Assembly (NCBI GenBank): GCA_001600175.1 | Contig: BCJC01000002.1 | Coordinates: 2,701,111-2,765,110, forward strand | DNA length: 64,000 nt | Direction of reading: 5' to 3' | Origin: Erythrobasidium yunnanense | Taxonomy: Eukaryota > Basidiomycota > Cystobasidiomycetes > Erythrobasidiales > Erythrobasidiaceae | In this document: in pieces, positions 17,154-22,825 of the stretch | How the letters are laid out: each line of letters starts with the position of its first letter | Numbering within the stretch: position 1 is the first letter of the stretch | Translations under genes and position numbers: made by a program | Notes under the pieces: model-generated | Database searches by the model: none | What the model was told of the DNA's origin: nothing | The model's input: the letters and a program-made list of their open reading frames with translations, nothing else

Positions 17154-19961
17154 ATGTCTGCGACCATCCAGAGTCTCTCAGAAGACACGATCAGCCAGCT
17201 TCGTAGCTCCTTCATTATCCAATCCCTACCTTCATGCATCCTCGAGCTCGTCCAGAATGCCCTTGACGCTCAAGCTTCGCACATCGAGATTGCTTTTGGA
17301 CTGCAGAACTGGCAATGTCGCGTAACGGATGATGGACATGGCATACCTCCACCTGGACTGACCAATATCGGGAAACGCTATCGTCCGCCATTTGTCGGCT
17401 TATCGAGATCCTGGAAGCAAGCTGACGAAAGAGAGTAGATACGTCGAAGTGCCATAATCTGCGAGATCTACAACATATACAGAGCTATGGATATCGAGGC
17501 GAAGGTACGAGGAAGTCCATCGGCATTCCATGAAGCCGCCGTTGACACTGTTCAGCCAGCTCTAGCGAGTATAGCAGATGCTTCGCTTTGCGAGATCGTA
17601 AGCAAGCATTCATCAAGCCAAGATAGATGGTCTGCCATTCTTCGAGTATGTCGATACTCTCAAGCTAGGACAAGAAGCTGACATGTAGCAGGGCGGCGAA
17701 AGGATCTATGAGGGACCCTCAAAGACCATCACACGCTCGACATCCGGAACGATCGTCCATGTACGCGACCTCTTCTACAAATGGCCTGTCCGGCGGAAAC
17801 AAGCAGAATCGTCCAGCACATATCGCAACTCCACGATCAGCCAGATCCGAAAAGGCATCGAAGCTCTAGCCATCATCAACTCCCATGTCGCTTTCACACT
17901 GTACGACATGGAAAGGCAAGACGATGCTGCAACCTCTGGAAGAATCCTTATGATTCCGAGAACAGATTCTATCGTTGCTGCTTTCGGGACTATCTATGGA
18001 AGATCCCTCGTTAAGGATGCTGTCGTGGTAGATCAGGAGGACGGAGACTATAGGCTGCTGGGCTTCCTGTCACCTGCTTCTTCCCATAGTAAGCAATACC
18101 AACTCATCTGTAAGCATATTTGCAGACACTACCTTGTATACTCCTCAAGCTAATCTCACTATGATGACAGACGTAAACGACCGGCCCATAGCTACCTGCG
18201 AGCTGCACCGTCGGATCAATCACCTGTTTTCACGGACCGCATTTGCTCGTGTTTCAGAGCTCGATGCACGAGTAAACGACCAAGAAGTCTCAACAGGAAA
18301 GGTGCGGCCGTCGATCGAATCTCCGCGCAAGAATATCGATCGTTATCCTGTTTTCTGCCTTAACTTGACAATGCCTGCGGATAAGGTGGACATCGGCCTA
18401 GAGCCTACGAAGAGACTTGTGCATTTCAAGGTAGGCTTGCATATTGTTGGGGATTGGACGAAAACTGAGACTTCGAAAAGGAAGAAAACCGTATTCTGCG
18501 CTTGGTCGATACGGCTGTCAAGGAATTCCTGCTGCAGCAAGGCTTCATCACACCAGCTGTCGAAAAGCCAGAAGATAGCAGGGAGACGTTACAAGATATA
18601 CAAACTCCGTCTCCTTCGCCAACAAAGAAGCATAAGCCATCCAAGCTGTTCGCGCAGCCTGATATATTCGCATATCCCACAGCAAGCTATCTTCGCTCGT
18701 TTGAGTACGGTATGTAGCTGATCTGTATGACTGTTGCAGCTCCCATCCGACGATGATAACCTGCACTACGAATTAGTCGATCCGTATAGCGGGCAGAAGT
18801 TTCTAGTCGATAAGCGGACTGGAAATTCGTGGGCTGCTCCAGTAGATCCATCAGCGCCAAATGTTGATCGGCTGCCATTCAATCGCTTGAATCTGGATCG
18901 AAAAGCTTTGCGCCGGACCGAGCAGCCTCAAGAGACTGCTGAAGATTCCGGACATACAGAGGGAGCCTTCCCTGCATGGCTCAATAAAGCTCTAAAGGGA
19001 TGGTCGAATCCCGTCTTTCAGCCCGCCAAAAAAGCCATACCTAGCCTAGCTACTTCTCAGCCTATCGGATCACAAAAGCACAACTCGGATTCCAACTCTT
19101 CTAGCAGTATTAGCAAAGAAGATCTTCATGATCTCAGCTTCATCGCTCAAGTGGACCAGAAATTCCTCCTGTGCCGCTCAAAAACCGAAGGCCAAGACCT
19201 GCTCATCCTGGTCGACCAGCATGCAGCGGACGAACGCATACGGATAGAGAACTTCCTCAAGCAGCTCTACACGCAAGTCACGACGTCGATAGTAGAGCAA
19301 ATTGCTCTGCAAGAACCGAAAGTTGTCCTGTTGGCGTCGATTGAGGTCGAGCAAGTCTCGGCCGTCTTGGATGATCTAGCAAGATGGGGCTTCAGAATGA
19401 CCGTTCCACATCAAAGCTTCGGCGACGATTACGGCCAAGTATACGTGCATAGCGTTCCTGCGATCTTGGCAGACCGGCTGGCGAGCGACTCTGCGCTGCT
19501 ACAGCGGCTGTTACAGCGCTATATCTGTCAGCCTTTCTCGGCAGGGATCAATGCAGGACTTGCTGGTCCGCAGTCCTGGTGCAGTGCTTTGAGGAAGTGT
19601 CCGGAAGTCATGATTGATCTGATCAATTCGAAGGCTTGTAGAGGTATGTGACACTTACGTCCACTTTTTCACCTACTAATCGCTCTCGAACAGGTGCTAT
19701 CATGTTCAACGATAGATTAGAAGCGACGGAGAGTCGAGATCTTCTGTCACGCCTCGCTCATACAGACTTTCCTTTCATATGTGCACACGGCAGGTGCGTT
19801 GGCGTGTTGAAAGGATGCTCTTTTAGCTTATGCTCTTTGCTAGACCTTCCATGATCCCAATCGTGGCATTACCTGCTAGCAATGCCCGTAAGACTAGGTC
19901 AATGAAGATGACATGGCAGATGCTACCGCACTTGGCCGCTGATCAGAGCAACTTGGAGTGA
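17154..19961 (+). CDS. MLH3: DNA mismatch repair / meiotic endonuclease MLH3
   Basis: MutL family protein; MLH1-MLH3 nicks DNA in mismatch repair and meiotic crossover resolution in the nucleus. The GHKL ATPase has ILELVQNALDAQASHIEIAF, CRVTDDGHGI and, across an intron, YGYRGEALASIADASL. VRDLFYKWPVRRK lies in the ATPase/transducer region. The C-terminal domain carries the metal-binding endonuclease motif DQHAADERIRIE (DQHA-x2-E-x4-E), then QPFSAGINAG, KACRGAIMFNDRLE and TDFPFICAHGRPSMIPIVAL. The stop is TGA at 19959-19961. Oddity: between IGKRY and SKLTKES the frame shifts across about 25 bases (17383-17407) too short for an ordinary intron (see findings). The endonuclease motif and C-terminal layout favour MLH3 over MLH1. 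Confidence 0.87.
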
Positions 19962-20137: not shown

Positions 20138-22364
20138 TTATCCCGACGGCGGTGCAGCCGTACCTTCCTTCTTGATCGTAGTCTCTGTCTTGACTGTAGG
20201 CCTGGGTGAAAGCACCACAGGCTCGTCCTCGTCATCGGACGAGCCTATCTCAATGATTTTTCTAGGCCCTTCTTCTTCATCGCTACTAATCTCGACGATG
20301 TCTTGAGCTCTCGCTACTACATGCGTAGGTATGGTCTTCCTAGCGGCGCCGGCTGAATGTGAAGAGGAAGGTCTAGCCGGGGCTACTACTGGTGATTGTA
20401 TTGCAGGAGATTGTGAATAATTTAACGAAGGCGTCTTGAGACGATCTACTTCCTGCGTACTTAAAGGATGCTGCAAGGCGGAATTTTGAGTCTGACTATC
20501 AAATGCAAAAAGTCGAGAATTGGTCGGAGTCGTTCTGACAGATGATGTACCATTTGCACCCTGAGTACCAGGCGAGTGGAGTGGGTCACTTCTTGATCGC
20601 GATACCGAAACCCTGGTTCTATCGAATTGCTCGCGTAGCGGGGAATAGAAGTCGTTTGTCGCTTTTAAAGGCCTAGGAGAATCCTCATCGCTTGCTGGAG
20701 GGGACCCGTAAGGCAGACTCGAAGCTTGCGAGGGCGCTGGCTTCCTTGCCGCCGAACAACGAATCGAGCTTGAGCTCACAGAAGCTCTTCCTTTGCCTTT
20801 GTTGGACCTCGGTCGCGGAGGTGATGAAGAGAGCTCGTCCAGATCATCGTCACTGTCTAACGAGGCAGGTAAAACAGGAAGTCTGTGGGTGCGCTCGGAA
20901 GGTTGGTCTTTGTCGATATCCACTGCCATCGAGTAGTCTTCCCTGTCATCACTCTCGCTAGAATCCTCTATGAGCGCTTCGACCAGCTGGTTAACCGCTT
21001 CGAGGCGTTTGCCATTGCCCGGTATAGGAGCCGTCTTGCGAGGCGGTCGAGTAGAGGCCTCGTCGTCAGAGCTATCCAAACTGCTCTCCTGAGGGTGGCT
21101 TCGCCGCTGCGACGGCTGCCTCTTTCTACCTTTGATGGCTCTGCCAGGCGGCCCTAACTTTTTCTTCGGCTTTGTCTGAGCCTGTGAGCGGTAAAGAGGA
21201 ATTGCAAACAAATTTTCTTTGTCGCTGTCACTGTCCGAGTCGGATGCAGCCACTAAGATAGGTGTAGACTCCGTCTTTCCGGTTGAAGACTTCTTGGCTC
21301 CGCCTGAAGAACGTAGAGGTGGATAGCTGGAAGGAGGTAAAGGAGCATCATCATCTGACTCGGAAGCGGTATCCACAGTGGTCTGGTAGCTTGTAGTCGG
21401 CTTTTTGCCCTTCTCTTTCGGTTGCTTTGCAGGACGACTTGTTGTTCGCGTGCCGTTTGTAGACGGCGGATCCGACGGTAACTTCGACAGAGAAGTAAAA
21501 ACAGATGTATCACTCTCTTCGCTTGCTTCCTCCTTGCGCTTCTTCTCCTCATCGCTCTCTTCTCGCTCTAGCTTTCGTCTCGTTGATTTTCCCATTCGGA
21601 GTCTATGGCGACTGAAGAGCAGTTCCACATTGATACTTGCGGCAGCAAAGGTAAGAATCAGTCGGCTTTGTGAATATAGGAACGCCGCAGAAATCGACAT
21701 ACTTGGGCAGGGTACCTGAGCCGCGATCTTGTTAGGAAATGATACAATTACTGCAGAGCAGCACTCTTACCTCCATGCGGAATGATAACATGGCCAAATA
21801 GCTTGAAGAAATCCTCATCTCGTAGGATGGCCAATTTGACGTGCCTCGGAGTGATACGGTGATTTCCCAATTCTAAGAGCACAGGAGCATTCACGGTTTA
21901 GCTACAAGCTCTCCACCTCTCTAACTGTGAGGCAAGCCCTAGTGAACTCACCGTTCATTTGGTCGATGATCGAGTTCAAGGCCTCTGCAACGAGAACTTT
22001 GTAGGAGAGGGCAGTATGTGTCAGATCAGGCCACAGCAACGTCTGAAAGACATGCTCACATTCGACGCTGGCGGCAGCGTAGACTTGGCAGACACAGATT
22101 AGCTGCCGTATCTCTCGCGAAGCACGGGTCGTACTGGCTGCTGTGGGTGACACTATTTGCGGCACAAGCTGTCGAATGTGACGTGATGTCAGCTCGCTTC
22201 CGGCTCAGACGTGACGGCCTTACTTCTCTTATCGTTCGCTGCGCTTTGCAGACGCTGAAAGTCAGATCGACTGTCACAATGCAACTTGCGTTAAGAGCTA
22301 ATCGCCATATCACGAGCAGGAAAGCTTGACGTCTGTGGGTTATGCACCTTCTGTGTCGAGCCAT
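20138..22364 (-). CDS. Divergent histone H2A with ~485-residue acidic Ser-rich tail
   Basis: Seven or more small exons rebuild an H2A fold. The start is MARHRSVCKAQRTIRELVPQ (a short N-terminus without a Lys-rich tail), then VSPTAAIYAAASVEFLVAE, ALNSIIDQMNELGNHRITPR, HVKLAILRDEDFFKLFG and HVIIPHGGTLPNINVELLF. From VSPTAA onward this aligns without gaps to canonical H2A, including RIxPRH, LAIRxDEE and the docking segment GGVLPNI. Five of six acidic-patch positions are kept (E56, E61, D90, E91 and D at 92; E64 is Asn). All junctions are phase-consistent. From FSRHRLRMGKSTRRKLEREE the frame continues into about 485 disordered residues rich in Ser, Asp and Glu, with basic blocks. Near the end are IVEISSDEEE, IIEIGSSDDEDE, VKTE and IKKE. 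Probably a chromatin protein; its function is unknown. Confidence 0.7.
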
Positions 22365-22825
22365 GACGAGGTTGGGTCTCCTTTCAGTAAGCGGGCAGAG
22401 TCAGCGCAGTTGAAGTAAAGACGACCCGGCAAAGAGGCCAAATTTTCAGCCGCCATTGTGAAGCCATCGAGGGGACTTCTAGGGTAAGGAAGGACAGAGA
22501 TTTGAGGAAGGAAAGCTAGGAGGGACCGCTTGAAGCCAGTTCCGTAATGGCATCGCGCGTCTTCCCAGCTACGCAGCAGGGAAGCAGAAGACTCAGGAAA
22601 CAGTGGAGCTCCTGTATCGACTAGAACATCATCTGCGCGAAACGGAGGTTTCCTTCGAGCAAATGATGTCGGTCTTCTTCGACGGACTTCCCGCAGCGGC
22701 GGCTGAGCAGACTTCCTTCTGCTTAGCTAAAATCATATAATATCAAGATACCAGGATCTGGCCAGCGCTTTATCCAGGCCTTAGGATTTCAAGCCATTCT
22801 TCTCGGGAAAGGCATTGCCAGCAGG
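22365..22825. other. Unassigned region with long open frames on both strands
   Basis: Upstream of the H2A-like gene. A minus-strand frame is open for about 130 codons (roughly 22360-22735), and a plus-strand frame reads KTQETVELLYRLEHHLRETE before a stop near 22740. Neither has a convincing start or a family match, so no gene is called. The promoter of the H2A-like gene must lie here. Confidence 0.35.

Follow-up and report, generated by a model that had tools for sequence, protein, structure and literature searches.

Few proteins are as strongly conserved as the core histones, and the locus described here raises the question of how far one of them, H2A, can be altered and enlarged. The window, by which we mean the whole 64,000-nucleotide stretch analyzed, covers C2:2701111-2765110 of the 20.9-Mb, 10-contig genome of Erythrobasidium yunnanense, and its minus strand carries a gene in which an H2A-like fold appeared to run into a much larger C-terminal region. 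Judged from its sequence, the gene encodes an H2A variant whose C-terminal tail is exceptionally long and contains no recognized domain.

Gene structure and coding potential

The four peptides from which the earlier note had assembled an H2A-like product were located on the minus strand, where GT-AG introns join them in consistent phase. The revised model consists of eight exons and 623 codons with the start at 22456, and contains seven introns of 51 to 79 nt. The exons are listed in order of transcription.

22348..22456, minus strand: exon 1 (tentative), start codon and a 36-residue Lys-poor N-tail, from the best-scoring ATG/donor pair
22224..22270, minus strand: exon 2 (47 nt), alphaN and alpha1 (DLTFSVCKAQRTIRE), aligning with SGLQFPVARILRHLKK
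22135..22168, minus strand: exon 3, last part of alpha1 followed by loop 1 (LVPQIVSPTAA)
22060..22083, minus strand: exon 4, start of alpha2 (IYAAASVE), holding the equivalent of acidic-patch residue E56
21952..21996, minus strand: exon 5, remainder of alpha2, with E61 kept and E64 replaced by Asn
21771..21872, minus strand: exon 6, L2 (HRITPRH), alpha3 and most of the docking domain, including the acidic-patch DED; site of the Histone_H2A_C match
21703..21715, minus strand: exon 7, a 13-nt microexon coding for part of GTLPN, both flanking introns having the position and phase found in the paralog varL028 (see below)
20138..21635, minus strand: exon 8, end of the docking domain (INVELLF), the entire tail and the stop codon; 498 open codons

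Exon 8 is 1498 nt long and opens inside the docking motif, between LPN and INVELLF, with no stop codon between INVELLF and the tail. The union of fold and tail thus requires no extra join, and because the end of the docking domain and the tail share this exon a single transcript spanning fold and tail is strongly indicated. An open exon of 498 codons has a chance probability of about 2e-10 given the base composition. Codon preference, learned from seven window frames (some of them lacking a Pfam match and treated as coding because of their length), gave the tail a log-odds score of +104.8 bits in its own frame, the other five scoring between -46 and -264. This frame was the best in eight of nine sub-windows, with another frame higher in the remaining one (12.3 against 5.1). 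The fold exons scored only +0.7, the other five frames giving -16 to -67, and the concatenated introns were negative in all six frames.

On the plus strand a MutL-type gene occupies 17689-19961, and its frame 18731-19648 matches MutL_C (3.7e-11). This gene and the H2A-like gene are arranged tail to tail: the last exon of the former apparently stops at 19961, leaving about 180 bp to the end of the latter, which lies between the MutL-type gene and eIF4G.

H2A paralogs and intron positions

The genome contains three canonical H2A genes (C2:872k, C2:970k and C6:1641k), each adjoining an H2B gene on the opposite strand. One of the three (L009) was reconstructed and serves as the canonical H2A in what follows. 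It ends in SQEV, an H2A.X-type end, and the bulk H2A of this organism may therefore double as H2A.X. Two further H2A variants were found: varL012 at C5:509192 (L012 1-3057), with 168 residues, eight introns and a fold 68% identical to canonical H2A, and varL028 at C5:1487490 (L028 1-3087), with 178 residues, seven introns and a fold 76% identical. The Histone_H2A_C score of varL028 was slightly below the cut-off when exons were searched separately and above it once the gene was spliced. Both variants have extended C-terminal tails rich in Lys, Glu and Asp, one of them with the acidic stretch EESEEEDEDFEDEG.

Six of the seven introns of the window gene interrupt the same aligned codon in the same phase as an intron in at least one H2A gene of the genome, with two exact matches to canonical H2A, four to varL012 and five to varL028. 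The remaining intron agrees in phase but is displaced by one or two columns, within a loop where the alignment has gaps. The match of intron 1 is not independent, because its acceptor was chosen with the paralogs in view. Introns 3-7 had been positioned by H2A similarity before the introns of the paralogs were examined, and all five matched exactly, for which a simple chance estimate that assumes equally likely sites is about 2e-7. The shared positions tie the gene to the H2A family beyond residue similarity and support the splice model. The first residues of the tail weakly resemble the tails of both paralogs (scores reached by 11/1000 and 3/1000 shuffles), which suggests that the tail grew out of an existing variant tail. 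The best explanation is that the gene is a divergent, probably lineage-specific H2A paralog that originated among a few intron-rich H2A variants whose C-terminal tails are extended.

The paralogs also bear on the 5' end of the gene. An initial model, with the same 5' end as the earlier note, started at 22364 and opened exon 2 at CGTCTGC. It was replaced because residues of alphaN and alpha1 were missing, whereas a longer exon 2 restores them together with the length and phase seen in the paralogs. If the acceptor lying 16 nt farther upstream is used, exon 2 measures 47 nt, encodes DLTFSVCKAQRTIRE, is entered in the same phase as in both paralogs, and aligns with their segments SGLQFPVARILRHLKK and AGLVFPAARLHRYLKK; the 47-nt length of exon 2 in varL012 and varL028 was derived from their intron codons and phases. 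Five ATG/donor pairs were in the right phase for exon 1, the best scoring 1.3 (start at 22456) and the runner-up 1.1. The donor of intron 1 (GTGCAT) therefore has a score of 1.3 against 3.7-8.9 for 24 other introns, on which the donor score was itself trained, and because this donor is weak the N-terminal exon is regarded as tentative. The modeled N-tail of 36 residues, encoded by this uncertain exon, contains one Lys and two Arg. The description of the N-tail as nearly absent depended on the doubtful 22364 start and the short exon 2, and gives way here to a tentative Lys-poor N-tail of 36 residues.

Identity of the histone fold

The predicted protein aligned with canonical H2A without gaps over the region that runs from loop 1 through the docking domain, as had been claimed. 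The fold was 43% identical to the canonical H2A of the same genome over 93 positions and 39% identical to Htz1. Comparison with canonical H2A gave a z-score of 32.7, with none of 1000 shuffles reaching the score; by the same procedure z was 28.4 for varL028, 26.8 for varL012, 22.9 for Htz1 and 0.0 for the organism's own H2B. A fold of NF-YC/DRAP1 type, which had been named as the outcome that would overturn the H2A assignment, was rejected: the two comparisons were near shuffle level, with z of 0.7 (239/1000) and 2.4 (29/1000) against 32.7, and H2A was kept. The Htz1, DRAP1 and NF-YC sequences used here were entered by hand.

The best PDB match was an H2A chain (2.6e-18) that contains part of H2A twice, and the second was also H2A (2.4e-15). 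At E <= 1e-12 there were 15 distinct PDB sequences, all of H2A types (2.6e-18 to 9.5e-13), and in a wider search the best 60 of 209 matches were likewise all H2A types. Profile searches, proposed earlier as a check, agreed in part. Histone_H2A_C (PF16211) matched residues 110-131 at 29.2 bits (cut-off 20; E 8e-07), while the core histone profile PF00125 stayed under its cut-off of 26.4 bits with 12.3 bits for the fold alone and was not listed for the whole protein. When PF00125 and PF16211 were run exon by exon against the genome, the window gene was absent from the matches listed, and an NCBIfam scan gave no relevant match. In a tree whose supports were mostly low the gene had a branch of length 1.78, and this placement was not taken as evidence; among the rows of the tree the Gonium sequence was a wrongly cut tandem fragment and one plant sequence was probably mislabeled. 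An H2A-type histone followed by a very long tail whose composition is of disordered type is thus well supported by the z-scores, the PDB matches, the introns and the shared exon, and descent from H2A with fusion of the tail is very probable.

Conservation of the docking domain and acidic patch

The acidic patch, which we take to consist of E56, E61, E64, D90, E91 and E92, was aligned with the window protein. Five of the six positions are acidic and four are identical, with E92 replaced by Asp and E64 by Asn, in agreement with the claim that the patch is mostly kept. The docking core GG-LPNI-LL is retained. Identity to canonical H2A is unevenly distributed, with 7/26 residues from alphaN to L1 and 8/28 from alpha2 to L2 (together 15/54), against 25/41 in the part that starts at RIIPRH of L2 and takes in alpha3 and the docking domain. 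The difference gave a Fisher p of 0.0016 for counts from a hand-set alignment with one gap, whose split point was picked after the alignment had been viewed. The two paralogs have no such contrast (43/55 then 29/40, and 37/55 then 28/40). The Arg of loop 1 is lost, and in L2 the Arg before I-T-P is kept while the two preceding Lys are lost; we assume for these residues the roles generally assigned to them in H2A, and without the three lost ones nucleosomes containing this protein may be weak or may not form.

A fold that is degenerating, or H2A-like exons that belong to a gene separate from the tail exon, could also account for the strong divergence of alpha1-L2, the weak first donor, the near-zero codon score of the fold exons and a search of the protein collection and of prokaryote and viral contigs that returned no homolog. 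Such artefact or decay is very improbable when set against the exon shared by docking end and tail, seven introns that keep phase and GT-AG borders with six at exactly shared positions, the strong coding signal of the tail, and the identity of 25 of the 41 residues from L2 onward.

The docking domain ties H2A-H2B to H3-H4 (PMC11500106). Its retention is most simply read as a sign that selection for seating on H3-H4 continues, and would favor a nucleosomal variant. The protein had previously been described as either an H2A-type histone or a histone-fold adaptor, and the first description is favored. As a non-nucleosomal adaptor it would pair with H2B or another histone-fold protein and serve a chaperone, remodeler or transcription cofactor complex with the tail as its working part, for which the diverged alpha1-L2 (15/54 identical), the missing loop-1 Arg and L2 Lys and the predicted Lys-poor N-tail can be cited. 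An adaptor has no evident need of the acidic patch, which is kept, or of the docking domain, which is the most conserved region and whose described function (PMC11500106) is to tether H2A-H2B to H3-H4. When the genome was searched with the organism's own H2B, the only exons found belonged to three H2B genes, and no special partner emerged, although a divergent one could be missed. The adaptor is accordingly less favored and is considered rather unlikely.

Composition and motifs of the C-terminal tail

The tail, claimed to be about 485 residues and five times the size of the fold, comprises 490 residues in the revised model, about five times the histone part, with 16.5% Ser and 10.6% Pro. Its disorder was judged by composition. 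The label acidic did not hold, as the tail is neutral overall (75 K+R against 72 D+E), though its charge is blocky: acidic D/E/S runs of six or more gave 12 overlapping matches against 0.42 expected (0/1000 shuffles), and basic blocks are also present. Three features were recorded, their motif statistics having been picked after the sequence was seen.

21119..21172, minus strand: basic stretch KPKKKLGPPGRAIKGRKR, NLS-like by eye alone; net charge +10 over residues 271-300
20411..20731, minus strand: SQ/TQ cluster, six motifs in about 106 residues; 20/5000 tail shuffles, with the window length chosen afterwards
20210..20302, minus strand: two SIM-like motifs (DIVEISSDEEE and IIEIGSSDDEDE); 2 against 0.18 expected, 22/1000 shuffles

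The NLS pattern K[KR]x[KR] had no match in the basic stretch and was not enriched in the tail (555/1000 shuffles). Over the whole tail eight SQ/TQ motifs were counted, a borderline number (59/1000). Sites for CK2 (154/1000), CDK (589/1000) and SP/TP (748/1000) and SUMO-acceptor sites (168/1000) were not above shuffles in the tail, acidic-aromatic motifs were not enriched (1 against 0.56 expected, 418/1000), and HP1-type and D-box patterns were absent from it. A KEN motif at residues 264-266 (44/1000) was set aside, and a pattern trimmed to the VEISSDEE stretch, which no shuffle in 1000 reached, was discarded as circular. The SIM-like, SQ/TQ and NLS-like motifs are treated as leads, not findings.

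The tail had been proposed to act as a chaperone-like or recruitment platform. Recruitment is plausible; the chaperone-like half is no better supported than other roles. In a chaperone-like histone the acidic stretches would cover the DNA-binding face of the same histone or associate with further H2A-H2B dimers, which the excess of D/E/S runs (12 against 0.42, 0/1000 shuffles) and the acidic stretch with an aromatic residue in the 168-residue paralog (EEEDEDFEDEG) would suit. The neutrality of the whole tail (75 against 72) and its unenriched acidic-aromatic motifs (1 against 0.56) weigh against such a protein, which appears improbable.

Charged insertions were seen in two other frames of the genome. 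A PCNA-like frame at C6:48592-49128 (L034, minus strand; PCNA_C 1.5e-36 in two stretches) has about 115 in-frame residues rich in Lys, Glu and Asp separating its two conserved parts. An SMC-like head region at C1:949862-950188 (L035, plus strand; AAA_21 7.4e-07, SMC_N under cut-off), presumably SMC3-like, has an in-frame stretch of about 118 residues, acidic and then lysine-rich, that is longer than the loop usually present there. Together with the window H2A, these two cases hint at frequent charged disordered additions to nuclear proteins in this genome.

Distribution and comparison with known H2A variants

Relatives were sought in a protein collection of NCBI, UniRef and EukProt records, eukaryotes included. 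Residues 1-102 of the first-model protein gave 36 candidates, none at E <= 0.001; candidates were restricted to 0.55-1.75 times 587 aa, so short-tailed relatives fell outside this search. The tail, from MGK on, had no relative among 8000 scored candidates. When prokaryote and viral contigs were scanned with the first 167 residues, there were 108 and 15 pattern matches, of which none was confirmed, and a search of the organism's own genome found no relative beyond H2A exons. With varL028 as the query, 7931 of 8000 scored candidates were at E <= 1e-10; among the best 120 matches 107 carry the H2A motif twice and are tandem H2As, and the only recognized fungal row is an H2A of Phaffia rhodozyma (P0118). 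Since the searches need shared 5-residue words (and one of them similar length) and could miss a distant ortholog, the window gene is no more than likely to be lineage-specific. Among the literature matches listed, titles and abstract openings reported no such fungal H2A.

H2A.Z was not found in the genome by protein and pattern searches, which are weak for genes with tiny exons, and YL1 had no match over the cut-off. These searches also missed varL012, and the histone-family searches missed the window gene. The absence of H2A.Z and YL1 may be a real loss or a limit of exon-wise searching.

In macroH2A of animals the region C-terminal to the H2A fold exceeds the fold in size. The window protein likewise has a larger-than-fold C-terminal addition, and because both additions follow the H2A fold they would exit the nucleosome at the same point. 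macroH2A is defined by its macro domain (PMC3380720). Pfam scans at E up to 1 found no macro domain in the window protein, and its tail, unlike that of macroH2A, looks disordered while its fold is more divergent. Bdelloid rotifers have lineage-specific variants (H2Abd, H2Abd1 and H2Abd2) with enlarged, unrelated C-terminal tails and intron-bearing histone genes, and their tails extend 28-43 residues beyond LLPKK on a near-canonical fold (PMC2642717); by contrast the window protein has a tail of about 490 residues and a fold 43% identical to canonical H2A. Like H2A.Z/Htz1 it has RITPRH in loop 2, which was found uninterrupted in no other histone of the genome. Unlike H2A.Z/Htz1, its docking region (LFGHVIIPHGG) is of canonical length, the form in the Htz1 sequence with which it was aligned being one residue shorter. 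It ends in APPSG and so differs from H2A.X in having no terminal SQ(E/D)-hydrophobic motif. The H2A of Medusavirus is described (PMC11500106) as having a longer tail, taking part in nucleosome-like particles and having a diverged docking domain. On that description a lengthened tail is common to the viral H2A and the window protein, whereas the docking domain is the part that the window protein has kept.

Proposed role

In the proposed mechanism the window H2A would pair with ordinary H2B, no divergent H2B having been found, and the dimer would dock on H3-H4 and join a subset of nucleosomes. The Ser/Pro-rich tail of about 490 residues would leave the nucleosome where the docking domain ends and could recruit partners through short motifs, namely the SUMO-interacting-like motifs near its end and the alternating charge blocks, and its SQ/TQ cluster could be phosphorylated by checkpoint kinases. 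Recruitment by such a platform is a plausible mechanism, and the tail may let nucleosomes that contain the window H2A recruit other proteins. That the protein is a nucleosomal platform with a recruiting tail is given an even chance, and a SUMO or DNA-damage theme is unlikely. A still bolder scenario is a long shot: the lineage would have lost H2A.Z and its deposition machinery and evolved its own intron-rich, long-tailed H2A set, in which a 623-residue scaffold histone gathers SUMO-modified or checkpoint-kinase-regulated repair factors on the nucleosome.

If the nucleosomal reading is true, the gene would show the limits of H2A remodeling, in a protein that preserves the surface docking on H3-H4, differs strongly elsewhere and still serves chromatin, and it would offer a natural nucleosome-anchored disordered platform for study. 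The two shorter tailed variants in the same genome form, with the window gene, a graded series in which the role of the tail could be tested.
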